Made by a program: the position numbers and the translations under genes. Below the pieces are notes generated by a model. It worked only from the letters and a program-made list of their open reading frames with translations. It was not told where the DNA came from and did not search any database. From assembly GCA_020439995.1 (NCBI GenBank), contig JAGROY010000060.1:1-64000 (forward strand): a stretch of 64,000 bases of DNA, written 5' to 3'. Of the stretch, positions 2,819 to 54,818 are shown piece after piece. The stretch's first letter is position 1. The number at the start of each line of letters is the position of its first letter. The stretch comes from Verrucomicrobiia bacterium. Its GTDB lineage: Bacteria; Verrucomicrobiota; Verrucomicrobiia; Verrucomicrobiales; DEV007.

Positions 2819-3143
2819 AGGTAAGTGTTTAAAGATAAATTCGTTAAGGGAAGCAGTCGCGCTGGAAAACCAATCGGCGCGAGGGCGCACTATAGAGGAG
2901 GCCGGGCATTTGACAACCTCAGCTACCGGGCTGGTACCTCGGACGAAGAATGCCGAGCAATCGGCGAGATGCAAACGGCGTTTCCAACCGAGTTTGCTCC
3001 CAGCAACTTCGAAGATTACCCATAGTCTCGTTTAATGACCAGCCTGGGCCAGCTGCCCTGCCCAGAACATTTCGTCATGAATGTGGAAAAAGGGCACCCG
3101 CTCGAGAGGCCGACGCGGAACTTTGGCGTTAAGTTTCTCCGCC
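2819..3143. other. Intergenic region between tig and the membrane-protein gene
   Basis: This 325-bp stretch holds the tig promoter and leader. I find no convincing ORF, tRNA or terminator in the rest. The downstream end abuts the stop codon of the membrane-protein gene, which is also on the minus strand. Confidence 0.6.
2889..2916 (-). promoter_or_regulatory. Sigma-70-type promoter for the tig-clpP-clpX operon
   Basis: On the minus strand a -35 box TTGTCA (2916-2911) is followed by 16 bp and a -10 box TATAGT (2894-2889). Both are one or two bases from consensus. Transcription would start near 2882, giving a 5' leader of about 64 nt before the tig ATG. The promoter is inferred from sequence only. 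Confidence 0.6.
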
Positions 3144-36264: not shown

Positions 36265-39200
36265 TCAATCCGAAGGGCGAAATGCCACGCGAAGATAGAG
36301 ATTCCCCTGTGGCACAAGCTCTTTGGGTAGCAGCAACTCCGTTTGATCCGCACTAAGAATTCCGGGAGCAGGATTCCATACAATCAGATCATCAGATGTC
36401 TCCAACCTGAGCACCCCCTCCCGATATCGCGAAAATCGAACCGTAACCCCGCTTTGATTTTGAGTTACGGTCAATACTCGAAAAAACGAACTAGAATCAT
36501 CGGGCGCGGATCCCACCTGCCATTCGTTCACATTCGATACTCCATCCCCATCGAAGTCATCCTCTCCTAATTCGTCGAGATTGCCAAAATGGGCCAGTTC
36601 GAACTCATCGGGAAGTCCGTCGCGATCACTGTCCGAGTCGTCACCTCCTTTGCGAAACTCTACCGAGCGGTTTAAGAACACCAACGTTTCTTCAGCCCCA
36701 ACCTCATTCAATCTGAGGCCCAAAAGATCTAAGTCGCCGTCTCCGTCGATATCCACCAGGCTCGAATCCGCAAGTTCAGGCAATATCAGCTCATCAACCC
36801 ACGCATTGGCTCCACTGGCTCTCAGCCACTTTCGCAATGGCAGGTTGACTAAGTCAAAGCGACCATCGCCATCAACATCCCGGACATTAATTGTCTTTCC
36901 TCCGAGTGTGGCGTCGACAGCCAATGCATCCGTAAACTCGCCCGATCCCTTGTTGCAAAACCACATGAGAGATCCGCCTGATCCGATACTGGCGACAAGA
37001 TCAAAATCCCCGTCGATATCGATGTCGAGAATCCAAAATTCATGAATCTGTCGGAATGCAGCAGAAATGATCCGTTCACTACCTGCCATCAGTCCGCCTT
37101 CCAGAGGTATCCACGAGACAGTCACAATATTGTCGTCACCTGTGCGAATCCCTGCAATATCGGGACTGCCATCTCCGTTAATATCTCCAATATCGAACTG
37201 AGAGTAGTGTGGATCGCTGGCCAGAAAAGTCACATCCTCAAACACTCCAGCATTGTTGATTCTCGCCATAGGTGGGGACAAGAGATCTTCATCGCCGTCG
37301 CCATCGATATCGTACCAGTGACCGACCCTTGGACCGTTGAATTCCATTTCTGTAAATCTTCCACCGCCATCATTTAGATAGCCCGTCGATCCCACATACC
37401 CGGTGTTGGTGGTTCGAGTGACTTTCAAATCCACGATCCCGTCAAGGTTGAGATCGCCGAACTCCATTCCTGGCTGGTCGTCTCCACTGGACAATCGCTG
37501 GCTTTCAACATAGCCATCAGTGGTATTGATATACACGGCGATTTCGTTGCTCCGAAGAGGTTTGAAGAGGTCGACCATCCCGTCGCCGTTGACATCGAGA
37601 CCGACAATTCCTTCACCTGTGGGAATACCGGAGGGAGCAACCACTGAGTCGAAGTAATTGACGTATGCAGTAATAGCCCTTTCAGCAATTTCGTTGCCTG
37701 ATTTCACTTGAAGAGTGAACGTCGTAGTTTCCGAAATGGCAACATTCAGAGGATCGACCTGATTGCCGACAGGATCGAATAGGGTTGCGGTCCCGGCACG
37801 GCGGATATCCCAATTGATTCGGCGAGTTCCAGCTCCCGCGCCCTGTGGTTCTACGCTTGCCGAGTAGATCCGCGGCGCGGTTGGGGACATCCAGTTGGGA
37901 AACGCACGGATACCCGGACTCACCTTCCCGCCCACTACGCCAATTATATCGATATAACCGTCGCGATTGAGATCACCATGGGCGCTTTGCACGACTAAGC
38001 GTTCTGGATTGATAACTCTTCCCTCTGGAAACTGCACTGGATCACTCTGCAACGCAAGCAACACTCCATTACTCTTGGAGCTGGACACCACGTCCAGCAG
38101 TCCATCACCGTCAAAATCAAACAGGTGAGGAACTTCACCCAAAGCATAAGTCACCTGTTCAGAAGTGAACGTCCCGGAATCGTCGACGAGGTAGTATGAA
38201 TCACTCTCAACAAGATCCTCCCGACCGTCACCATTGATGTCTCCGATATCTGTATCCGAACTCGCGAACTTGATCGCTGACTGCTCAACCGCCCCGGAGA
38301 ACGCACCATCTCCAAGTCCAAGAAACCTGCGATACCCTTGCTGTCCTCCAGAATATTTCGCCAGCAAATCATTCGTTCCATTGCCGTCAAAATCACTACA
38401 GTATATATCAGTGAACTGAAAGGAAGGGCCATCTTCATCAAGGAAGATCATATTACCTTCCTGAAAATTACCCATACCGTCATTTATCAAACTGACTATC
38501 CCGTTTGCTTCGTTGCTATTCTGCCAAGCGGCAGCGAGGTCAAGGTTCCCGTCATTGTCTAGATCGGCAGGGGAGACAACGCTGCAACGCCGGTCCGCCG
38601 GCCAGGAAATTGGCACGATGTCGAAAATGCCCCGACCATCGTTCTTCAACCAGCGGAGCCCAGTTGTGTCCCAGGCGACGATGTCCGAATCACCATCGCT
38701 ATCAATGTCCGCAATGGCACGGACGACGCTTGATCCGACGCTGGAAAGCAACACCTCCCCAGAGAACTTGAATTTGCCCAATCCCTTGCGCCAGGAGAGT
38801 GGCATTCCCTGAGAGGATGAGTAGAGTAGATCTAAGACACTGTCACCATCAAGATCCGCAACTACACAATCTCTCACCGTCCTGCCGTTACCAGACAGAA
38901 CGACCTCCGGGCCGAACTCCCAGTCATCCAGATTCAAAGACATGTCAAATCTCGCATTGGCGGTGCCAATTCCATACGCGTGAAGTTCCACTGCGATTAT
39001 GTTAGTGCCATCCCTGAGAAAGTTCCGCGACTGATGCAAGTCGTATCTGAGATAACGGGCTTCCTCATCTTTGACTACAAAACTTCCTTTCGTTTCAAAA
39101 TTTGGCGCAGGATCGAGATCCGCACTTAGCACCAGTTCTCCATTGAGATAGACTGCCACACCCGCATCCTTCATGATGTAGGCCACCATTCCATCAAAAT

Positions 39201-39531
39201 TCTCTTTTGCCCCCTGCGGCACATCGAATGCTTTTCGAAAGTAGTAGGTCACGTGACGTGTTGATGGCGCAATGCGGGTCTTTTCCCCACCGTTGCCAAA
39301 ACCAAACCACCCCTGCCCCTCCTTCCATGACGAATCATCATACTCCCGCTGTCGCCATTCCTCCCCCCGAGGCGACGGATCGTCAGAGTAGCGCCAGATG
39401 CTTTCCTTGCCCATCAGCAGAACTGGATCGCCATCTGCAAGAACGAATTCAATCCCCATGCCAACTACTATCCAGATAAAAATCCAGTTCCACCAACCTT
39501 GTTTTCCAATACTTCGCTGCTCTATTGCCAT
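36265..39531 (-). CDS. Giant exported FG-GAP/VCBS-repeat protein
   Basis: This is a 1088-residue exported protein. After an N-terminal hydrophobic segment (WNWIFIWIVVGMGIEFVLA) there is a galactose-binding-like jelly roll at about residues 35-200 (DDSSWKEGQGWFGFG, VAVYLNGELVLSAD, GTNIIAVELHAYG). Long tracts of FG-GAP/VCBS repeats follow, with calcium-loop motifs such as DLDGDSVLDLL, DIDSDGDSDIV and DFDGDGLLDVV. The end carries a calcium-binding hinge (DRDGLPDEFE, DFDGDGVSNVNEW) and the shared C-terminal module (RLETSDDLIVW...LYLRVAF). No catalytic domain is evident; adhesion or a structural surface role is likely. Base composition looks lower in G+C than the neighbours in sampled lines. Confidence 0.85.
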   Translation of the reverse strand: MAIEQRSIGKQGWWNWIFIWIVVGMGIEFVLADGDPVLLMGKESIWRYSDDPSPRGEEWRQREYDDSSWKEGQGWFGFGNGGEKTRIAPSTRHVTYYFRKAFDVPQGAKENFDGMVAYIMKDAGVAVYLNGELVLSADLDPAPNFETKGSFVVKDEEARYLRYDLHQSRNFLRDGTNIIAVELHAYGIGTANARFDMSLNLDDWEFGPEVVLSGNGRTVRDCVVADLDGDSVLDLLYSSSQGMPLSWRKGLGKFKFSGEVLLSSVGSSVVRAIADIDSDGDSDIVAWDTTGLRWLKNDGRGIFDIVPISWPADRRCSVVSPADLDNDGNLDLAAAWQNSNEANGIVSLINDGMGNFQEGNMIFLDEDGPSFQFTDIYCSDFDGNGTNDLLAKYSGGQQGYRRFLGLGDGAFSGAVEQSAIKFASSDTDIGDINGDGREDLVESDSYYLVDDSGTFTSEQVTYALGEVPHLFDFDGDGLLDVVSSSKSNGVLLALQSDPVQFPEGRVINPERLVVQSAHGDLNRDGYIDIIGVVGGKVSPGIRAFPNWMSPTAPRIYSASVEPQGAGAGTRRINWDIRRAGTATLFDPVGNQVDPLNVAISETTTFTLQVKSGNEIAERAITAYVNYFDSVVAPSGIPTGEGIVGLDVNGDGMVDLFKPLRSNEIAVYINTTDGYVESQRLSSGDDQPGMEFGDLNLDGIVDLKVTRTTNTGYVGSTGYLNDGGGRFTEMEFNGPRVGHWYDIDGDGDEDLLSPPMARINNAGVFEDVTFLASDPHYSQFDIGDINGDGSPDIAGIRTGDDNIVTVSWIPLEGGLMAGSERIISAAFRQIHEFWILDIDIDGDFDLVASIGSGGSLMWFCNKGSGEFTDALAVDATLGGKTINVRDVDGDGRFDLVNLPLRKWLRASGANAWVDELILPELADSSLVDIDGDGDLDLLGLRLNEVGAEETLVFLNRSVEFRKGGDDSDSDRDGLPDEFELAHFGNLDELGEDDFDGDGVSNVNEWQVGSAPDDSSSFFRVLTVTQNQSGVTVRFSRYREGVLRLETSDDLIVWNPAPGILSADQTELLLPKELVPQGNLYLRVAFRPSD

Positions 39532-39890: not shown

Positions 39891-42482
39891 TTACTCGCCG
39901 TAGCGCGAAACCTTGAATGAGGTCGCACCTTGCTGCTGGTTGCAGATCGCAAGATCGCCCGACTTCAGTACCAACGGCTCTGAGGCTTCGCCGCTGGGCC
40001 AGTGCACCGTTACGGTCGCCTCTGCGGCGTCGCCGATACCGACAAGCATGGTGGCACTGTTCTGCCCAGCGTAGCCTTCTCCACAGAGGTGCTCGCGTTC
40101 CATACGCAGGTCGCCAGCTTCGATAACCAGGCGGGCACCGTAGCCATCCCTTGGTGTCATCCCTTTGCGGGGCTCAGCCTTGTCGTTGGCTCCTTGAAAT
40201 TTCAGGGCGATAAATCCATTCCCGGCCCGGTGACCGGCTTCCTTTGATTGATTTCGATACCAGCTGAGAAGTGGTCGGTTGGCGTTGACGACGACGATGT
40301 CCGTGCGTCCGTCTTTGTCGAAATCCCACCGCACCCAGGTGCGGCTGTCGGCAAGATCATCGGCACCGGAGACGCTGGAGATATCGAGGAAATCAGTCCC
40401 GCCCTGGTTGATAAAAAGCTTGTTGCGTTCGTATCCGCTGTAGGGGTGCTTGTGAAATTCGGTGCCGTAGAGATTGAACCGCTCAAACTCGGGTTTCTTC
40501 TCGCCCGTTGATGGGTCGATGATCCATTGCGATTCATCGCGAAAGGATTGCGGCAGGCTTTCGTCCGAGCGTACGACCGTACGCCAGAGGCAACTTCACA
40601 AGTCGACGTTGTTGCCGATGCCATCCGGTGGTGTGTAAAATCCACTGGAGACGTAGAGGTCAAGAAAGCCATCGTTATCGAAGTCTGCGAACTGGCCTCC
40701 CCACGACCAGCCAGCATTGGCGACCTGGATCGCTGGTTTTTCCAGTCCGGATGTGCGCTGGAAGGTGGCGTCACCGTTGCTGCGGAACAGGTAGTTGCCC
40801 TCGGCACCGGCGACCATGCGCTGGTCGATGCCCGGCACCTGCGCAGTGATGCGACGGCCGGCTTTGGAATACATGTTAGAGACGTAGAGATCCTGCCAGC
40901 CATCGTTGTCGTAGTCACCAAATGCCGCGCCCATGCCGAAGCCCATGAGGTTGGTTCCGGAAGCTTCTGTGATATCAGTGAAACCCGCGTCGCCATCGTT
41001 GCGGAAAAAATGGTCGAGAGCGAAATCGTTGGCAACATAGAGATCGGGGTCGCCGTCCTTATCGAAATCACTCCAGGTCGCCTGGAACGTGTTACGGTAG
41101 CCAGCCAGGGTTGCGGACTCAGGTGCGCGAGCGAATTTGCCATCGCCCTTGTTGACAAAAAGCATGTTCGGCGGGCCGACTTGCCCGAGGAACCCATGAT
41201 ACTTGGCGTAGTGGTGCTTCACTTCTGCCGCCTCTTCCGCAGACAGAAACTTCTCGACCCACTCCGGCTGCGCTGAGGACTTGCCAGTGATCCGCGCTGT
41301 GATGTCCAGCGGGCTGTAAGTGCAGAAGAAGATGTCGAGGAGTCCGTCCCCGTTGTAGTCAGCCGAACTGGTCGATGTCACCAGATAGGGCAACTCGCCA
41401 TCGATATTGCCAAACGAGGCCTCGATGAAATTCCCGCCGGCATTGATGAGATACTGACTGCGTTCGAGGCTGCGCCCGAGCATGAGATCCGGGTCGCCGT
41501 CGTTGTCAAAATCGGCGAAAGTGGCGCTGGTCGATCGCCCTTCGATGTCGAGTCCATAGTTGGAAGCCACTTCTTCAAAGGTGCCGTTGCCCAGGTTCCG
41601 GAACAGCATGTTCTTGCCCCAGCGGACACAGACGTACAAATCATCCCAGCCATCGTTGTCGATATCTACCACCGACAATGCCGGGTGGACATTCACCGCA
41701 TCGGGAAAGAAGCGCTTGTCGGTGTAGCCGCGAGGGGTTCTTGCTGGCTTTCCCCCAAAGTAGTTTTCAACAAGGATCTCCTGGTGCCTTGAAACAATGG
41801 CCCGCTGGCGAGGGCCTTCATCCGGAATGGCGGTGGCGAGCACCTCGTCGAACAGCAACGCCGGGGTTTCGAGTCCTTCAAAATCTTTCTGCCGCCATCC
41901 AGAAATCTTCCACTCGTCATCGTCCTGTTGTGTCCATGTCAGATCTTGATGTGCACTCACAGCGATCCATTTCCCACCGGATCGAACGAGCGCGTCGAAC
42001 CCACAGGGGGTGACAAATAATCTGCCCGTGCCTTCGGTAAATGCCCCGCTGATAAGGTAAAATTTCGCCGACTTCACGTCACTGTCCGAAGGAACGATCC
42101 CTTGCCATAACCGGAGATTCTCCCGTTGAGATTCCACTTGCTGATCCGCTACAGGCACGGAAAACGCGGCCAGCTCAGATCCGAAGATTGGGTAGCTGCC
42201 CGCCTTTGAAGATGCATCAAGAACGCCAGTGACAGCGATATTGTCCGCAAACAGACCACCAGTGCTGTCACTGACTTGGCGGCTTGTCAGGAAACTTTCT
42301 GACAACGCCTTGAGACGGGGACTGAGTTGCAGGATGAGTTCTTCCGAGGCGACGACCGTTCGCACCGTCGAGAGATCGGCGGGAGGCGCGACTGATGAAG
42401 TGTTCGAATCGTCCTTTCCGCATGCTGTGAAGAGGACTGACCCGAAAGCAATGAGAGCGCTGTTAAAAAAACCTGCGGACAT
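39891..42482 (-). CDS. CRTAC1/ASPIC-UnbV family lipoprotein read across one in-frame UGA (candidate selenoprotein or nonsense mutant)
   Basis: The ATG at 42482 starts a lipoprotein signal ending at a lipobox (FTAC, Cys21). After ~200 residues, FG-GAP/VCBS repeats (DIDNDGWDDLYV, DFDNDGDPDLML and others) follow. An ASPIC/UnbV-type C-terminus (VRWDFDKDGRTDIVVV...TVTVHWPSGEASEPLVL) ends at 39891. The frame is continuous over 864 codons except for a TGA at codon 629 (40596-40598). Family-like sequence continues without shift on both sides: NNVDL before it, SCLWRTVV directly after it and HPYSGYERNKLFINQGG further on. If UGA is a stop, the product has 628 residues and lacks the ASPIC/UnbV domain. 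If it is decoded as selenocysteine, it creates a Sec-Ser-Cys motif. A hairpin 11 nt downstream supports the second reading. An in-frame TTG at 42527 is a weaker alternative start. CRTAC1-like proteins are extracellular, of unknown function. Confidence 0.8.
40569..40584 (-). promoter_or_regulatory. bSECIS-like hairpin downstream of the in-frame UGA
   Basis: On the coding (minus) strand GCGTACGGTCGTACGC forms a perfect 6-bp stem with loop GGUC. The stem begins 11 nt after the UGA (40598-40596) and the loop begins 17 nt after it. Bacterial SECIS elements, as I recall, need a stem-loop just downstream of UGA, an apical loop about 16-37 nt away and a G among the first two loop bases. The E. coli fdhF loop is also GGUC. 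The same bases encode WRTVVR, so the match could be chance. Confidence 0.45.
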
Positions 42483-42593: not shown

Positions 42594-43259
42594 TCAATCG
42601 CGTCTGCGGCGAGCAAAGAAAGCCGCTCCGGTCAGGGCAAGCAGGCCAAAGGTGGAAGGCTCAGGCACTGCATCGTAGACGAAATTGCCCGCGCCATATC
42701 GGATGGAAGGACCTCCGTCCAAGCTTGAGGGGAACGCTTCCGGGGTGGCTGCGTCACCGAAACGTGATCCGCCAACAAATTCAATCTGACCACCACCGTC
42801 ATTGACTGTGGTCGGCCAAGCCCCAGTGTTCCCGTCGTTGCCATTGCTCTCTCCCGCTCCGTATCCCCAGCCCACCAGGGTGTAATTGCCAGGGTCAAGA
42901 GTTACGCTTGCATCCTTGAAGCGATAGGAACCTTGAAGCGTGCCGGGATCCACATTCGTAAAAGTAGTGAGCCCAAGTATTGCGCCCACGCCTGCATCAT
43001 CAGCAAAATCGTCAGGAGTTCCGCCATCGTCACGTCGATAAATTCCCACGGAGATATCGAGGTTCATTCCATCACCGTTGTGATCAAACGCTCCGAGCTG
43101 TGTTATCGCGATCGGAGAATGCACGATAAAATCCAAGCCTAGCGAACCGCCATATTCTTGATTTCCAGCGGTTAGAGTGGCCTCAATTGCTGTATTCGCA
43201 GCGTTTGCCGCAGTGCACACCATGCTGGCGGCGATCAGAATTGATGTTGCTTTCTTCAT
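42594..43259 (-). CDS. PEP-CTERM protein with a single copy of a local ~185-residue domain
   Basis: This 221-residue exported protein has a signal peptide (KKATSILIAASMVCTAANA). It ends in a PEP-CTERM sorting signal: VPEPSTFG, a hydrophobic helix (LLALTGAAFFA) and RRRRD. The signal is recognised by an exosortase encoded elsewhere. The domain between them (GNQEYGGSLGLDFIVHSPI, then LGAFDHNGDGMNLD, IYRRDDGGTPDD, GNYTLVGWGYGAGESN, RYGAGNFVYD) recurs three times in the neighbouring 916-residue protein. It is probably a beta-sandwich with calcium-binding Asp-rich loops. A strong terminator follows the gene. Confidence 0.9.
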   Translation of the reverse strand: MKKATSILIAASMVCTAANAANTAIEATLTAGNQEYGGSLGLDFIVHSPIAITQLGAFDHNGDGMNLDISVGIYRRDDGGTPDDFADDAGVGAILGLTTFTNVDPGTLQGSYRFKDASVTLDPGNYTLVGWGYGAGESNGNDGNTGAWPTTVNDGGGQIEFVGGSRFGDAATPEAFPSSLDGGPSIRYGAGNFVYDAVPEPSTFGLLALTGAAFFARRRRD

Positions 43260-46164: not shown

Positions 46165-49100
46165 ATGCTCACCACTGTTCACATCAAGGCACTTCGAGAC
46201 GTTCTCTTTCGGACAATCAGCCTTCTTGCTGGGGCGATCGTCGGAATCGGCAACAGCCTCGGCGCGCCCATCGTGTCGGAGTTTCTTGCCGACGATCCAG
46301 AGGGCGGGCCGGACTGGATCGAGATAGCAAGCGATTCAGCAACAACGATCGACCTTTCGGGTTGGCAGTTGCGTGACAGCGATACCACTTGGCAATTTCC
46401 GATAGGAGCTTCGCTGCCTCCGCGTGGTTTGTTAGTTGTGTTCGCCAGTGGCCAGACTGAGCCTGGCTACCAGGACGAGGACGGAAACTATCATACGTCC
46501 TTCCGACTCAATCGGGACGGTGAAGTGCTGGCGCTCTATGATCCAACCGGGCTCCAGGTATCGATGGTGCCCGAGCCTGTGCCGAGGCAGATCGCGGGTG
46601 TCTCGTATGGGGTCACCTCATCGGGCAACTGGCGCTTCTTTGAAAATCCAACGCCAGGAACGCTGAATCCCGCTGATGGGATCGAAGGCTTTGTCGAAGA
46701 GATTGAGTTCTCGGTGGGCCGTGGGTTTTTCGATGATCCGTTCACCGTTGAGCTGACATCTGCAACACCTGATGCGGAGATTCGATTCACGACGAATGGA
46801 TCGGCACCCGATGAAAACAGCACTCTCTACGAGAAAGCGCTCGAGGTGACCACGACGAAAGTGGTGCGAGCACAAGCGTTCAAGTCTGGTTACCAATCAT
46901 CGCCGACAGCCACAGTGACTTACCTCTTCCCGTCCGACATTGCAGTACAATCCGATGCGCCGGAGGGATTTCCGGCACGCTGGAAATCCACCGCTGCCGA
47001 CTATGAGATGGACGGGAATGCTGGCGACTATGCAAAGGCAGCTGGCAGCGCCGATTTTACTCCAGAACAGGCGCGCGCGGCGATCGCCGAGTCGCTGGTT
47101 GCGATCCCAAGTCTATCGATCGTGATGGCCAACGATGACCTGTTCGCATCAAGCGATGGGATCTACTCCAATCCCGGTTCCCGAGGTGATCGATGGGAAC
47201 GTCCCGCTTCCGTCGAATTCTTGAATCCAGATGGATCTGAGGGCTTCCAGATCGATGGCGGCATTCAGGTGATGGGCGGCACCTCCAGGGATCTGAGTTT
47301 TGCCAAGAAGCTCAGTTTCCGGCTGGTCTTCAAGCGCGAGTATGGGCCGGGATGGCTTGAGTATCCGTTCTTCGGGCCGGAGGGTGCGACTCGATTCAAC
47401 ACGCTGCCGCTGCGGACGAATATCAGGGATTCGTGGGTCGCTGAATACGGCGGGTTCGGCAAGGCATTGTACATCGCGGATCAATGGGCAAAGCAGACGC
47501 AACTCGATATGGGGCAGCCGGCAACGCGCGGGCGCTTTGTGCATCTCTACTTGAATGGACTCTACTGGGGCCTCTATAATCCGACCGAACGACCTGATTC
47601 CGCATTCGCGGAGTCGTATCTGCCGGGAGTTCGCGAGGACTACGATGTCGTCAAATTCTGCTGTCCGGATCGTGTGGTCGATGGCTCGACCGCGATGTGG
47701 AATCGGCTCATCACATTGTGCAACCGCGGGCTGCAGGACAACGCTGACTATTTCTTCATTCAAGGTCGTGATCCAGACGGCGCCCCGAATCCAGAATTCC
47801 AGACGCTGATCGATGTCGATAACTTCATCGACTACGTCATCAATGGTCAGTATCACGCAGCCAATGACTGGCCCGGAAACTACTACGTCATGCGCGACGG
47901 CAACGACGACCGCAGCGAAGGATTCAAATATTTCACCTGGGACAACGACCTCGCATTCGTCAATGCGAACATCAACTTGAACAAGGTGCAAACCGATCCC
48001 GGCCACAACTGGTGGACGGAATCTCCCGGAGTCATGGACATCGCTCTGCGGCGAAACGATGAGTATCGACTGCGATTTGCTGATCATGTTTACAGACACT
48101 ATTTCAACGGTGGCGCGCTCACTGAAGAGGCCAACGCAAAGCGCTGGATCGCGATAGCCGATGCTGTGAAGCCTGCGCTTTATGCTGAAGCAGCGCGCTG
48201 GGGCGACGCTAAAGCACGGATCCGCACGGTGCAGGATCACTGGCAGGCGATGAGTGATCGAATGGTGGACACGTTCTTCCCGCGACGTCAGGCAGTAGTC
48301 TTCAAGCAACTGCGCCAGTACGGTTTGTATCCCGAGCTTGAGCCGCCGCAGATGAATCAAAGTGGTGGAATGGTGGAACCAGGCTTCGGCCTCCAGTTCA
48401 GCGCCGAGGCCCCGGTGTTCTACACCACCGACGGCAGCGATCCGCGGCTCATCGGCGACGAGCAGAATCCTGATGCGACGGTCGTCAGCGGCGGGATCGG
48501 TGAGGCAGTGTTTATTGAAGAAAGCAGTGCGCTCAAAGCTTTTGTGCCCGCAGATGATTCATTGGAGAACCAGTGGCAATTGCCGGACTTTGATGACAGC
48601 CTCTGGCCCGCTGGAGCATCCGGTGTAGGATACGATACTGGATCGGTGTACCGGGATCTGATTGGTCTGGATTTCTTCGAAACCATGCGACTCTTCAATT
48701 CAACCGTCTACCTGCGGATGGCGTTCGAAGTGGGTGATGCCGCCGCCGTGCAGTCGTTACGCCTTGCCATGAAATATGACGACGGATTCGTGGCCTATTT
48801 GAACGGTGAGAAAGTGGCCCAGATGAACGCGCCGGAAACGGCTACTTGGAACTCACGGGCGACCGACGGGCATCCGGACACTGAGGCGCTGGTGTTCGAA
48901 GAGTTTGACATCACTGCCAGCAAGTCATTGCTCCGCGCCGGAACCAACGTTCTGGCGATCCAGGGCTTGAATGATGACATGAACAGCTCCGACTTTCTCA
49001 TCGTGCCGGAATTGCGCGCCACCGTTTTCGAAACAGCGAGCCGCATTCCGATCCAGGGAACGACTACTGTGAAAGCCCGCGCCTACAATGGCACGGAATG

Positions 49101-49884
49101 GTCCGCGTTGCACGAGGCTCGGTTCATCGTTGGATCACCTGCAACTGCCGAGAACCTGAAGGTCACCGAGATCCACTACCGGCCTGCGGCGCCATCCGAC
49201 AACGAGATCGCACTAGGTTACGATCAGCGCTCCGACTTCGAGTTTGTCGAAATCTCTAACACATCTACAATCGATGCAATCGTCGATGGACTTGTGTTCA
49301 CTCAGGGCATTCGCACCACTCCCCTCGCCGGTGTCATTCCTGCTGGGGCATCAATGTTAATCGTCAGCAATCCATCCGCATTCCTCACCCGCTACGGAGA
49401 GTCCATGCAACCAAACATCCTGGCTACCTTCGCCGATGGCACGAATCTGGCAGACGGTGGCGAGCGCATTGAACTCACAGATGCACACGGAGCCGAATTG
49501 GCATCTGTCGAATACGACGACGCCCCGCCATGGCCATCCGCCGCCGACGGGGACGGGCCTTCGCTTGAGCTGGATTCAGATGGAACGTGGCGAGCAAGTG
49601 TGGAACCCGGGGGAAGCCCTGGGACATTCGAGGGCACCGGTGAAGCAACCATTCAGATCACAGGCATTCACATCATACGCGAGCCGGACGGCGATCCAGG
49701 GATGCTTGAAATAAAGTATTCCTCGGTTCCTGATTCCCTCGTTCCCATGGTTGAATGGAGTGGCGACCTTCGAGCCTGGGAAAACGTGCTACCAACTGGA
49801 GTCGATGCCGGCAATACTGGTGTCGTAAAGGTTGCCCTGCCTCTGGGCGCAGTCGGCGGCTACGTGCGACTTCGATTCCGGTAG
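46165..49884 (+). CDS. Giant exported CotH-kinase and lamin-tail protein (first copy)
   Basis: This 1239-residue protein has an N-terminal hydrophobic segment (FRTISLLAGAIVGIG) and a lamin-tail domain (SEFLADDPEGGPDWIEIAS). A chitobiase/hexosaminidase C-terminal-type domain follows near residues 175-255 (ATPDAEIRFTTNGSAPDE). The CotH-like atypical kinase domain spans about residues 310-700. Its candidate catalytic Lys lies in AKKLSFRLVFKREYG, with the metal-binding aspartates in YFTWDNDLAF. A jelly roll (KYDDGFVAYLNGEKV), a second lamin-tail domain (VTEIHYRPAAPSDNEI) and a C-terminal module like those of neighbouring proteins (VEWSGDLRAW...YVRLRFR) complete it. CotH phosphorylates spore-coat proteins in Bacillus; here the target is unknown. 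Confidence 0.87.
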   Translation: MLTTVHIKALRDVLFRTISLLAGAIVGIGNSLGAPIVSEFLADDPEGGPDWIEIASDSATTIDLSGWQLRDSDTTWQFPIGASLPPRGLLVVFASGQTEPGYQDEDGNYHTSFRLNRDGEVLALYDPTGLQVSMVPEPVPRQIAGVSYGVTSSGNWRFFENPTPGTLNPADGIEGFVEEIEFSVGRGFFDDPFTVELTSATPDAEIRFTTNGSAPDENSTLYEKALEVTTTKVVRAQAFKSGYQSSPTATVTYLFPSDIAVQSDAPEGFPARWKSTAADYEMDGNAGDYAKAAGSADFTPEQARAAIAESLVAIPSLSIVMANDDLFASSDGIYSNPGSRGDRWERPASVEFLNPDGSEGFQIDGGIQVMGGTSRDLSFAKKLSFRLVFKREYGPGWLEYPFFGPEGATRFNTLPLRTNIRDSWVAEYGGFGKALYIADQWAKQTQLDMGQPATRGRFVHLYLNGLYWGLYNPTERPDSAFAESYLPGVREDYDVVKFCCPDRVVDGSTAMWNRLITLCNRGLQDNADYFFIQGRDPDGAPNPEFQTLIDVDNFIDYVINGQYHAANDWPGNYYVMRDGNDDRSEGFKYFTWDNDLAFVNANINLNKVQTDPGHNWWTESPGVMDIALRRNDEYRLRFADHVYRHYFNGGALTEEANAKRWIAIADAVKPALYAEAARWGDAKARIRTVQDHWQAMSDRMVDTFFPRRQAVVFKQLRQYGLYPELEPPQMNQSGGMVEPGFGLQFSAEAPVFYTTDGSDPRLIGDEQNPDATVVSGGIGEAVFIEESSALKAFVPADDSLENQWQLPDFDDSLWPAGASGVGYDTGSVYRDLIGLDFFETMRLFNSTVYLRMAFEVGDAAAVQSLRLAMKYDDGFVAYLNGEKVAQMNAPETATWNSRATDGHPDTEALVFEEFDITASKSLLRAGTNVLAIQGLNDDMNSSDFLIVPELRATVFETASRIPIQGTTTVKARAYNGTEWSALHEARFIVGSPATAENLKVTEIHYRPAAPSDNEIALGYDQRSDFEFVEISNTSTIDAIVDGLVFTQGIRTTPLAGVIPAGASMLIVSNPSAFLTRYGESMQPNILATFADGTNLADGGERIELTDAHGAELASVEYDDAPPWPSAADGDGPSLELDSDGTWRASVEPGGSPGTFEGTGEATIQITGIHIIREPDGDPGMLEIKYSSVPDSLVPMVEWSGDLRAWENVLPTGVDAGNTGVVKVALPLGAVGGYVRLRFR

Positions 49885-50863: not shown

Positions 50864-50921
50864 AATCGTGCATTGTCGCTGAATGAGTTTCTGGTTAGGG
50901 TTCCCCAAGAACTCTTTACCA

Positions 50922-53900
50922 ATGACTCGTCCCGCTACGCTTCCCGTTTTCACTTATCTCCTTTGTTCATGCTGTTTCGCGGATGTTGTCATCAACGAGA
51001 TTCACTACGAACCAGCAGAACTGGAAGAGCTGTCCGAGTTTATCGAGCTGCACAACACCGGTGACACCGCTGTGGATATGGCGGGTTGGGCGCTTCGGGA
51101 TGGAGTCACTTACACGTTTCCAGAAGGAGCACTGATCGATGCCGCAGGGTATCTGGTAATCGCACGCAATGTCGATGCAGTTCGAGCTGCGCATGGAGTG
51201 GCTGCACTTGGCCCGTGGGAAGGAAGATTGAGCAACAAGGGGGAGCGCGTCGAGCTGGAAGATGCAGAAGGAAAGCGCGTGGATGTCGTGGAGTACGGGC
51301 TGGCTTTTCCCTGGCCCACCGGCTCGGCGGGCGGCGGAGGATCGATGGAGTTGATCAACCCATCGCTTGATAACGACCTCGGTGGATCATGGCGCTACTC
51401 GCAACCACCCAGTCCTCTTGGCGCATTGACCTACATCACGGAATCGTCGCTGAACTGGAGTTACCGCCCCGGCGACAGTGAAGCTTCAGATCCTGTCGGG
51501 GCATGGCGCGGCATCGACTTTGCTGAAGGCGATGATTGGCTTAGAGGGCAGACGCCCATCGGATTCGCGCGAACAGTCGATACGGATGGGCCGTTCAACA
51601 CGTTTCTGGATGGCATGCAGTCTAACTACAGCTCCCTGTATCTGCGGCATTCATTTGAAGTGGCTCCCGGAGAGCTTCCATCCCAATTGCTCCTCCGTTA
51701 CCGGATCGACGATGGCGTAATCATCTGGATCAATGGTGTGGAAGTAGAACGGTTCCAGGTGGATGCAGGCGAGGCACCGTTCAGTGCGACGGCGAATGGT
51801 TCCACTGAAGTCAGTGTGGGCTGGCGGGAAGTGACGATCAACGGCGGCGCTCTGGTAGAAGGTAAAAATGTCATCTCTGCCCACGCCTTCAATTCCTCCA
51901 TCTCCGGCAGCGATTTCTCGGTCGATGTTTCCCTTGAACGTCAGGCCGAGCCGCAACCCGAACCCCAACCAACTGCCGGCCGCCCCAACTCCACGTTCTC
52001 CGCGAACGCCCCACCCCAAGCCCGTCAAGTCAATCACACTCCGAAGCAGCCAAAAACCAACGAGCCCGTAGTCGTTAGCGCCAAGGTTACCGATCCCGAC
52101 GGCGTCGCGCGCGTGACATTGCTTTACCAGATCGTCGAGCCTGGGAACTACATCCGCTCCACCGACGAGGCATTCGAAGCAAACTGGATCGCCATGCCAA
52201 TGACGGACGCAGACGGCGATGATGTGTTTGAGGTGACGATGCCCACATCCGTGCAGGTTCATCGTCGATTGATCCGCTATCGCATCGAAGCAGAAGACAG
52301 TGCCGCCAACTCCGTGCGTGTCCCTTATGCTGACGATCCCGCACTCAACTTTGCCTACTTCGTTTACGACGGTGCCCCAGCGTGGACGGGAAGCTTCAAA
52401 CCTGGCGGTGAAATGGTCACCTTCACCGCCGATATCATGAATTCACTGCCGATCTACCATTTGATCGGACAGGAAAGAGACATTCGCGACTCACAGTACA
52501 CCACGCGCTACAACGACGGAGTGTATCGGTTTCTCGGAACCATGGTTCACGATGGTGAAGTCTACGATCACATGTCCTACCGCATTCGTGGACATGGTTC
52601 GACCTACAACACTGGCAAGAATAAATGGAAACTGCGCTTCAATTCCGGCCACTACTTCAAGGCGCACGACAACTACGGGCGCCCACGGAATGAAGCAGTG
52701 AAAACACTCAACTGGAGCGCACTTGCCAGCCCATGGAACCCGGCGAACCGTGGCATGGCAGGCTTGGACGAGGCTGTCGCTTTCCGCCTCTGGCAGCTCA
52801 CCGGAACCCCAGCTGCCAACACCAATTACTTTCATCTGCGCATTATCGACGACGCGGTTGAGCAAAATCCCGACGACCAGTACGACGGAGACAACTGGGG
52901 GCTCTATCTCACCATCGAGCAAACCGATAAACGCTTCCTCGACGAGCGCGGCCTGCCCGATGGCAACACCTACAACATGCACTTCGGCGATAGCAATGTG
53001 CTCAATCAGGCACCAGGGGAACCTGCAACCACCACCGACCTGCGCCGCTTCTATGGCACTTCCGCCGACGGTTACAACAAGCGCAATCCCATCCAACCAG
53101 TCTCGTGGTGGGAAGAGAACGTTGAAATCGACCACTACTTTTCCTATCGAGCAGTGGTCGAAGCGATCAATCACAGCGACCTGCGGGATCAGGAAAATTC
53201 CAACTATTACCACAACCCGGTGACCGGGAAATGGACCATGATTCCGTGGGATGTCGATCTACTCTATGAAGAGTTCGATCGCTGGGGCCCCAATGCGGTG
53301 CAGTCACAGGCGACACTCGAGCAGTTCCGCAAAGCACTTGATCACCCTGAGCTTAACCTGCGCTTTCAAAACCGTGCCCGTGAACTGCAGGACTTGCTGC
53401 TCAACGAAGATCAAGGATGGATGCTGATTGATGAATTCGCCCACATTCTGGGAAGTGCCGATGGCGAGATGGGCTGGGCGGAGGTCGATGCCTATCGATG
53501 GGAAGAAGACCCACGTTCGCGCGCTATCGAAGGACCTTCCACCAACAGCGGCAGCTTCTTCGTTAATCCCTATCGCTCCACGCGTTTTCCAAGCAAACGT
53601 CGCGAGCTGGTGAGTGGTGATTTTGCTGGCATGATGCAGTGGGTGAAGGACTTCATCGTGCCTACGGGTTTCGGTGGCGGGCGCCTGAACGCAATGGCAG
53701 AAGATCAGACGATCCCTGACAAGCCAGTGCTTACATATGCGGGAGCGGACGGATTTCCGCTGGGAGGAATCGTCCTGCAGTCATCGTCGTTCGCATCGCC
53801 GAGTGGCGAGACGTTTCAGTCGATGCAGTGGCGACTGGGAGAAATCCGCAGCACCGCTGGCGAACCTTACATCTACGAAATTGAGCCGCTGTGGAATCCT

Positions 53901-54818
53901 GAGCCGCAAGACACTTTCGCAGCGCAAGTCACCGTGCCGACATCAGCGCTGGTTCCGGGAAGAACGTACCGCGCCCGCGTCCGCCATCAAGATGCCTCAG
54001 GTCGGTGGAGTCATTGGTCAGATCCGGTTCAGTTCTCACCAGCAGAACCAGACCTAGCAAGCTTGCGCGCCGACCTCGTCATCAGCGAGATCATGTATGA
54101 CCCTGCTCCGCCGTCAGCAGTGGAAATGGCAGCGGGCTTTGGAGCTGCGGATTTCGAATTTGTCGAACTTCACAATCGCGGTGAGGGTAATGTTGATCTG
54201 GCCTCATTGCGATTCACCAAAGGCATTGATTTTGATTTCGCACTGCTGGCCAACCCGGTTCTCACATCCGGACAAACCCTCGTCATTGCCCGCAATGCCG
54301 ATGCGTTTGCCCTGCGCTACGGATTTGCCGCAGCAGCTGAGTGGGGAGCCGACAAGCTCGCCAACGAAGGCGAACTCCTGAAGCTTAGCGTCGGAGCAGG
54401 ACTGTCATTCATCGAGATCGACTACAACGACGCGGCACCCTGGCCAGTCGCAGGCAGCGCTGGCTCAATCGAGCTCAGCCGCATTACCGCTACTGACACG
54501 ACTGTCGCTGCGAGCTGGAGACGCAGTGCTCTCGCCAATGGATCGCCGGGAACCATCCCTGAAATTGCCGATGGACAAGTACCCGTGATCGTAAGCCTGC
54601 AGCTCGATGAAACGATCGCCTCCCTGACTATTGACGCTGCCTTGGGTTCCGGCGAACCACAATTGCAGACATCCGCCGACCTCGTGTTATGGGTAAATCA
54701 ACCCAGCACCGTGTCACCAATCGATGGCGCTCCCAGCGGCCAGCGCTACAAGCTCGAATACCCGCTCGCTGATGATCAGCGTTCAGGAGATCTGTTTTTG
54801 AGGACAGTCCTTAAGTGA
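50922..54818 (+). CDS. Giant exported CotH-kinase and lamin-tail protein (second copy)
   Basis: This 1298-residue protein has a signal peptide (RPATLPVFTYLLCSCCFA) directly followed by a lamin-tail domain (INEIHYEPAELEELSEFIEL). Next come a galactose-binding-like jelly roll (RIDDGVIIWINGVEVE), a Pro/Gln-rich linker and an Ig-like domain (NEPVVVSAKVTDPDGVARV). The CotH-like kinase domain spans about residues 500-850, with NKWKLRFNSG, NWGLYLTIEQTDKRFLD and IPWDVDLLYEEFD as probable catalytic parts. A fibronectin-like region, a second lamin-tail (SEIMYDPAPPSAVEM) and a C-terminal module (QTSADLVLW...LFLRTVLK) end it. It is related in layout to the other CotH protein. The ATG at 50922 gives the best signal peptide. 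Confidence 0.87.
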   Translation: MTRPATLPVFTYLLCSCCFADVVINEIHYEPAELEELSEFIELHNTGDTAVDMAGWALRDGVTYTFPEGALIDAAGYLVIARNVDAVRAAHGVAALGPWEGRLSNKGERVELEDAEGKRVDVVEYGLAFPWPTGSAGGGGSMELINPSLDNDLGGSWRYSQPPSPLGALTYITESSLNWSYRPGDSEASDPVGAWRGIDFAEGDDWLRGQTPIGFARTVDTDGPFNTFLDGMQSNYSSLYLRHSFEVAPGELPSQLLLRYRIDDGVIIWINGVEVERFQVDAGEAPFSATANGSTEVSVGWREVTINGGALVEGKNVISAHAFNSSISGSDFSVDVSLERQAEPQPEPQPTAGRPNSTFSANAPPQARQVNHTPKQPKTNEPVVVSAKVTDPDGVARVTLLYQIVEPGNYIRSTDEAFEANWIAMPMTDADGDDVFEVTMPTSVQVHRRLIRYRIEAEDSAANSVRVPYADDPALNFAYFVYDGAPAWTGSFKPGGEMVTFTADIMNSLPIYHLIGQERDIRDSQYTTRYNDGVYRFLGTMVHDGEVYDHMSYRIRGHGSTYNTGKNKWKLRFNSGHYFKAHDNYGRPRNEAVKTLNWSALASPWNPANRGMAGLDEAVAFRLWQLTGTPAANTNYFHLRIIDDAVEQNPDDQYDGDNWGLYLTIEQTDKRFLDERGLPDGNTYNMHFGDSNVLNQAPGEPATTTDLRRFYGTSADGYNKRNPIQPVSWWEENVEIDHYFSYRAVVEAINHSDLRDQENSNYYHNPVTGKWTMIPWDVDLLYEEFDRWGPNAVQSQATLEQFRKALDHPELNLRFQNRARELQDLLLNEDQGWMLIDEFAHILGSADGEMGWAEVDAYRWEEDPRSRAIEGPSTNSGSFFVNPYRSTRFPSKRRELVSGDFAGMMQWVKDFIVPTGFGGGRLNAMAEDQTIPDKPVLTYAGADGFPLGGIVLQSSSFASPSGETFQSMQWRLGEIRSTAGEPYIYEIEPLWNPEPQDTFAAQVTVPTSALVPGRTYRARVRHQDASGRWSHWSDPVQFSPAEPDLASLRADLVISEIMYDPAPPSAVEMAAGFGAADFEFVELHNRGEGNVDLASLRFTKGIDFDFALLANPVLTSGQTLVIARNADAFALRYGFAAAAEWGADKLANEGELLKLSVGAGLSFIEIDYNDAAPWPVAGSAGSIELSRITATDTTVAASWRRSALANGSPGTIPEIADGQVPVIVSLQLDETIASLTIDAALGSGEPQLQTSADLVLWVNQPSTVSPIDGAPSGQRYKLEYPLADDQRSGDLFLRTVLK

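Follow-up and report, generated by a model that had tools for sequence, protein, structure and literature searches.

Bacterial proteins of the CRTAC1/ASPIC-UnbV type, in which an FG-GAP beta-propeller is combined with a UnbV_ASPIC domain, have to our knowledge no established function. Selenocysteine (Sec) insertion in bacteria depends on a hairpin downstream of the UGA, the bSECIS element, and for the hairpin described here we take the fdhF-type bSECIS of E. coli to be the appropriate comparison. The constraints published for bSECIS elements are a loop of 3-9 nt with a G in its first two positions, a stem of 4-16 bp, a distance of 16-37 nt from the UGA and a minimum free energy (MFE) of at most -7.5 kcal/mol (PMC13188914). 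The catalogue of prokaryotic selenoprotein families given in the same source (May 2026; 119 families; PMC13188914, Table 1) is without any FG-GAP, ASPIC, CRTAC1 or VCBS family. In addition, none of the papers covered by our literature search joins CRTAC1, ASPIC, UnbV or FG-GAP to selenocysteine; the family may have been described already in Haft 2025 (mSystems) or in Deng 2026 (Cell Rep).

The gene, its in-frame UGA and its neighbours

The stretch of DNA analysed in this study, hereafter the window, comprises 64,000 nucleotides of a contig from a Verrucomicrobiia bacterium (JAGROY010000060.1). On its minus strand, a gene (39891..42482) encodes a protein of 863 residues with a lipoprotein-like signal, an N-terminal alpha/beta region, an FG-GAP beta-propeller and a C-terminal UnbV_ASPIC domain. 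The reading frame, which runs from 42482 to 39891, has a single interruption, a TGA at 40598-40596 (minus strand) corresponding to residue 629. As detailed below, the TGAs aligned with it in homologues, a sister subfamily with Cys, the TGA of the orthologue and the dN/dS values lead us to read this codon as Sec (Sec629), with a probability of about 0.93 that it is so decoded, and the gene is very probably a member of an extensive family of exported bacterial selenoproteins that seems not to have been catalogued so far.

The window protein matches FG-GAP_3, FG-GAP and UnbV_ASPIC (PF13517, PF01839 and PF07593) above the Pfam cut-off, and thus shows both the FG-GAP propeller and the UnbV_ASPIC domain by which CRTAC1/ASPIC-UnbV membership is defined; no NCBIfam 20.0 model scored above its cut-off on this protein. 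An AlphaFold model built with Cys standing in for Sec (pLDDT 88.6, pTM 0.91) gave mouse CRTAC1 (9etn) as its top PDB fold match, with an E value of 9e-26. The N-terminus, MSAGFFNSALIAFGSVLFTAC-G, contains a lipobox, the signal peptide and lipobox (LFTA-C, ending at Cys21) being encoded at 42420..42482 on the minus strand; export of the window protein, as a lipoprotein, is therefore predicted.

Upstream, the selenoprotein gene is adjoined on the same strand by a gene for a PEP-CTERM protein (42594..43259, minus strand). PEP-CTERM ends were also found upstream of six of the relatives' genes (L019, L024, L079, L086, L094 and L095), and the association of the two genes is only suggestive. The gene adjoining downstream (36265-39531, minus strand) encodes a second FG-GAP repeat protein, without UnbV_ASPIC and with an uninterrupted frame. 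Elsewhere in the window, two large proteins with CotH-kinase and lamin-tail domains are encoded on the plus strand (46165-49884 and 50883-54818), and a TylF-type methyltransferase gene sits between them.

Conservation of the UGA and of the downstream hairpin

The homologue search covered 57 related genomes. The close genomes exist as drafts, and most of the named ones, considered further below, are metagenome bins. Many homologues per genome were recovered, mostly as long open frames with exactly one TGA. A profile alignment placed the TGA of 97 homologous copies, 85 of them distinct sites, in one common column, and the same-genus orthologue (L019, 91% identity) carries the identical TGA. The typical form of the motif in the fetched loci is DL-U-S-x-[FYL]-W-R-x-V-V. 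At the DNA level, the pattern GAYYTNTGANNNNNNNNNTGGMGNNNNGTN yielded 128 matches in the 57 genomes, whereas its reversed form, used as control, yielded 4. Of the 128, about 124 were judged genuine; they are spread over 19 genomes, with up to 14 in one genome. The window's own genome contains 12 such sites, the window gene being one of at least 12 paralogues.

Among the named contigs, the UGA form is present in Verrucomicrobiota, in Planctomycetota (L087, L088, L096, L102, L110, L114), in Acidobacteriota (L104, L105, L107, L119), in Gemmatimonadota (L109) and in Chloroflexota (the Dehalococcoidia bin L111), some of these phylum assignments resting on single metagenome bins, for which misbinning is possible. 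Within the phylum of the window its distribution is patchy, because among the 388 genomes of a phylum-wide sample only G394 and the window's own genome carry the UGA form; three further genomes matched without the TGA. Two small groups depart from the typical motif. The DGU side clade (L066, L111, L120), from Verrucomicrobiota and a Dehalococcoidia bin, shows PDG-U-[STP]-C-[LM]-W, with a stem placed differently (for example GGCUGU...ACAGCC), and the Acidobacteriota contig L119 has two U-bearing genes with another motif (DL-U-LP) and the hairpin GCGC-GGUC-GCGC.

Comparison of the window gene with its orthologue gave a dN/dS of 0.06 before the UGA (from codon 201) and of 0.15 after it; as values near 1 would be expected for the tail of a pseudogene, the downstream part is under purifying selection. 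Directly 5' of the UGA stands the context GAC-UUG (40599..40604, minus strand). Of 76 family members, 68 use UUG as the Leu codon preceding the UGA, against a background of 16%, and the Ser codon following it is AGY at 72 of 75 sites, against a background of 35%. UUG-UGA-AGY therefore constitutes an extended context beyond the needs of the protein sequence, which may affect the balance between decoding and termination.

Downstream of the UGA, a bSECIS-like hairpin maps to 40564..40588 (minus strand), with a 6-bp upper stem (40584-40569), the loop GGUC (40578-40575) and, past a bulged U, a lower extension of 4 bp. Its upper part, GCGUAC-GGUC-GUACGC, begins 11 nt after the UGA, the loop lying 17 nt after it. 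The preliminary description of this locus, made from the letters of the window, had reported both the open frame with its lone TGA and this hairpin, and our analysis confirms the two features as described. The loop GGUC, the stem of 6 bp, the distance of 17 nt and the MFE of -13 kcal/mol obtained on local folding all lie within the four published ranges. When folded as a single sequence, the window hairpin was no stronger than shuffles (z = -0.93); single-sequence folding energy was hence discarded as uninformative.

At the level of the family, the hairpin goes far beyond chance and covaries, also at synonymous positions. A perfect 6-bp stem was found at 69 of the 85 homologous sites; synonymous recoding that leaves the peptides unchanged would be expected to yield 5.2. 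Two main registers could be distinguished, both with six pairs: at 27 sites, that of the window among them, the loop measures 4 nt, and at 56 sites it measures 5 nt. The loops mostly start with GGUC. On 55 distinct sites with the 5-nt loop, 97.6% of the cells were paired. Double changes numbered 21, the shuffles giving 2.9 +/- 1.5, and the covariation score was 0.330 against 0.119 +/- 0.016, a value which no shuffle equalled; shuffles ignore relatedness and so overstate this significance, but sliding the strands, a control that preserves relatedness, abolished the signal (at most 0.127), a large difference. The third base of the Arg codon, a fully synonymous position, pairs with its partner at 54 of the 55 sites (permutation maximum 43) through five types of pair (G-U, A-U, C-G, G-C and U-A). 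In a further pair, which joins the first Arg-codon base (CGN/AGG) to the third position of a codon further on, C-G and A-U replace each other.

The exact Sec column is occupied by Cys in a sister subfamily of eight proteins (L036, L059, L075, L081, L086, L108, L169 and L174) with the motif [KR]D[YH]-C-[TS]-x-[FY]-W. In a tree calculated with the Sec residue masked, these eight proteins form a single clade (SH-aLRT 96), and the Sec proteins group together, with 4 label changes compared to a shuffled mean of 11.7. Cys and other REPLACEMENTS are thus found at the Sec column, and within the Sec side Asn (L100) and Glu (L125) also occur. The hairpin is absent in the Cys homologues and broken in the Glu form, while all six pairs (6/6) are formed in L025, the nearest Sec relative of the latter. 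The Asn form (codon at 3141) still folds an 8-bp hairpin at the site. As the genome of the Asn form has selB, loss of the Sec machinery as the origin of this form is unsupported; the genome of the Glu form has selB and selA. Searching the relatives with a DNA pattern for the Cys motif returned background matches only, the pattern being too loose.

Selenocysteine machinery and alternative readings of the UGA

All four components of the Sec machinery were detected in the window's genome: a tRNA-Sec with a UCA anticodon on contig C32 (62.8 bits), selB on C85 (283 bits), selA on C45 (483 bits) and selD on C192 (263 bits). The selD match (L185, G000:C192:27856-28779) lies within an open frame of 757 residues and may be fused to another domain. 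Among the 57 relatives, selA is present in 18 of the 19 with the UGA form versus 7 of the 38 others (Fisher p 2.4e-8, in genomes that are related, so that the events are not independent); the only UGA-form relative without a selA match, G008, has a tRNA-Sec. The named loci led to 22 UGA-bearing genomes, two of which are also among the 57, and selA was found in 20 of them, twice as fragments. Beyond these 20, selB was found in G432, and in the metagenome bin G440 neither selA nor selB was found.

The presence of these genes and their co-occurrence with the UGA form, together with the conserved UGA, the covariation of the hairpin, the replacement by Cys and the selection acting after the UGA, lead us to infer that Sec is inserted at residue 629. 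UGA629 would be decoded by the standard bacterial Sec route in an exported CRTAC1-like beta-propeller lipoprotein, the GGUC-loop hairpin beginning 11 nt downstream of the codon recruiting SelB with Sec-tRNA(UCA). The preliminary description had put the gene forward as a candidate selenoprotein, to be judged by aligning homologues, by looking for a sense codon in close strains and by searching the genome for selA, selB, selD and tRNA-Sec. The alignment, with Sec-UGA in 97 copies and Cys in eight sister-clade proteins, the TGA of the same-genus orthologue, the family-wide covariation of the hairpin and the four genes found all strongly support that proposal.

Other readings of the UGA have to be weighed against these data. 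One stop in an otherwise open frame has the appearance of a recent mutation in a single genome; an origin of the TGA by nonsense mutation or sequencing error, whether the gene is intact or decaying, is nevertheless refuted by the TGAs aligned in the same column in 97 copies across several phyla, by the TGA of the orthologue and by the dN/dS of 0.15 past the stop, and the compensatory changes in the hairpin speak against it as well, so that its probability is negligible. A genome-wide reassignment of UGA was also rejected, because TGA is a normal stop in the window, where it ends 14 of the 26 genes. Some bacteria have UGA-decoding Cys tRNAs, and Cys homologues exist in this family; a suppressor tRNA with a UCA anticodon could on these grounds be imagined to insert Cys or another standard residue instead of Sec. 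We regard this as very improbable, considering that the bSECIS-type hairpin with its GG/GU loop, which is the signal for SelB, is conserved and covaries, that the UGA form co-occurs with selA, selB and tRNA-Sec, and that UGA is used as a normal stop elsewhere.

The position of the UGA, close to the end of the propeller, is such that termination there would keep most of the FG-GAP repeats and remove the ASPIC domain. The codon could hence act as a selenium-dependent switch between a truncated lipoprotein of 628 residues and the full protein, with the ratio of the two being what matters. However, the strong conservation of DxU...W in both the Sec and the Cys clades suggests that the residue itself is important, which makes such a switch improbable. 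The Asn and Glu forms within the Sec clade, the bin G440 and the unremarkable single-sequence fold of the window hairpin count against Sec decoding; all together, the data nonetheless argue for decoding of UGA629 as Sec.

Putative role of Sec629 and comparison with known systems

Sec or Cys is conserved at one column of the propeller only, that of residue 629 (46 of 47 aligned relatives), and the neighbouring Asp627 and Trp633 are invariant across the Sec and Cys clades. The preliminary description had proposed a Sec-Ser-Cys redox pair; this part was not supported, as no more than 10 of the 47 aligned relatives have the Cys at +2. In the AlphaFold model of the window protein, Sec629 starts an alpha-helix (629-638) beside the propeller, and in the model of the relative L024 the corresponding residue is likewise at the start of an alpha-helix (621-631). 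At the N-terminus of a helix, the active-site thiols of redox enzymes are known to have a lowered pKa.

Most Sec relatives (L024, L087, L098 and others) carry a C-terminal TlpA/ResA-like domain with a CxxC motif, and some add TPRs. This domain matches the ResA/TlpA structures 1jfu and 1st9, with E values from 4e-14 to 6e-13, and CxxC is kept in all 24 aligned relatives that have it. By Pfam and sequence, the C-terminal CxxC thioredoxin-like domain is absent from the window protein, as it is from the eight Cys homologues. The fusion found in the relatives therefore suggests an exported redox enzyme. From homology, the helix-N-terminal position and the domain fusion, we lean towards a role of Sec629 in extracytoplasmic thiol/selenol redox chemistry. 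In the relatives, the fused TlpA/ResA-like CxxC domain would re-reduce the Sec; the window protein, which is without this domain, would have to rely on a thioredoxin-like partner encoded separately. That the window protein has neither the fused domain nor another conserved Cys speaks against the redox role.

The main rival of this redox role is metal binding, in which the inserted Sec would act as a metal ligand or as a metal/metalloid trap. Residue 629 being the sole conserved Sec/Cys of the propeller, its vicinity in the sequence to the Asp-rich FG-GAP loops and to the invariant Asp627, and the export of the family are all compatible with it. On the other hand, the TlpA/ResA-like CxxC domain is fused in most Sec members and absent in the eight Cys homologues, which points to thiol redox partners and renders the metal reading unlikely. 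Taking the redox role further, the odds are about even that these proteins represent a new class of extracytoplasmic selenoenzymes, defined by a CRTAC1-type propeller, a helix-capping Sec and a fused or separate TlpA/ResA-like reductase, with a dozen paralogues per genome and making up maybe much of the selenoproteome of some Verrucomicrobiota.

Standard gene finders probably split the UGA-containing genes, and a large exported family would thus be misannotated in several phyla. The FG-GAP propeller would be a fold added to the current selenoprotein catalogue, and the more than 100 paralogous bSECIS elements offer a natural set varying in loop, stem register and codon context. In addition, the Sec site gives a clue to the chemistry carried out by bacterial CRTAC1/ASPIC proteins and makes it testable.

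With respect to known systems, the window protein has in common with CRTAC1/ASPIC-UnbV (PF07593 with PF13517/PF01839; mouse 9etn) the domain order and the best fold match, but the profile alignment leaves the DLUSxxWRxVV segment uncovered in mouse CRTAC1, the Sec there being a feature of the bacterial clade, many members of which carry, unlike CRTAC1/ASPIC-UnbV, added TlpA/ResA and TPR domains. The Cys subfamily resembles the window protein in that its D-x-C-[ST]-x-x-[FY]-W aligns with the Sec site, and differs from the Sec members in its Cys codon and in lacking both the hairpin and the C-terminal CxxC domain. The TlpA/ResA thiol-disulfide oxidoreductases are similar to the C-terminal CxxC domain of most Sec relatives, where it is fused behind the Sec-bearing propeller, whereas the window protein is without it. 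With the fdhF-type bacterial selenoproteins, finally, the locus shares the UGA, a hairpin 11 nt downstream, the GGUC apical loop and SelA, SelB, SelD and tRNA-Sec, while the family of the window differs in its FG-GAP propeller fold and in its two main stem registers, with other shapes in small side clades. In conclusion, the decoding mechanism is already known, and the protein family, its fold and the degree of paralogue expansion appear to be new.
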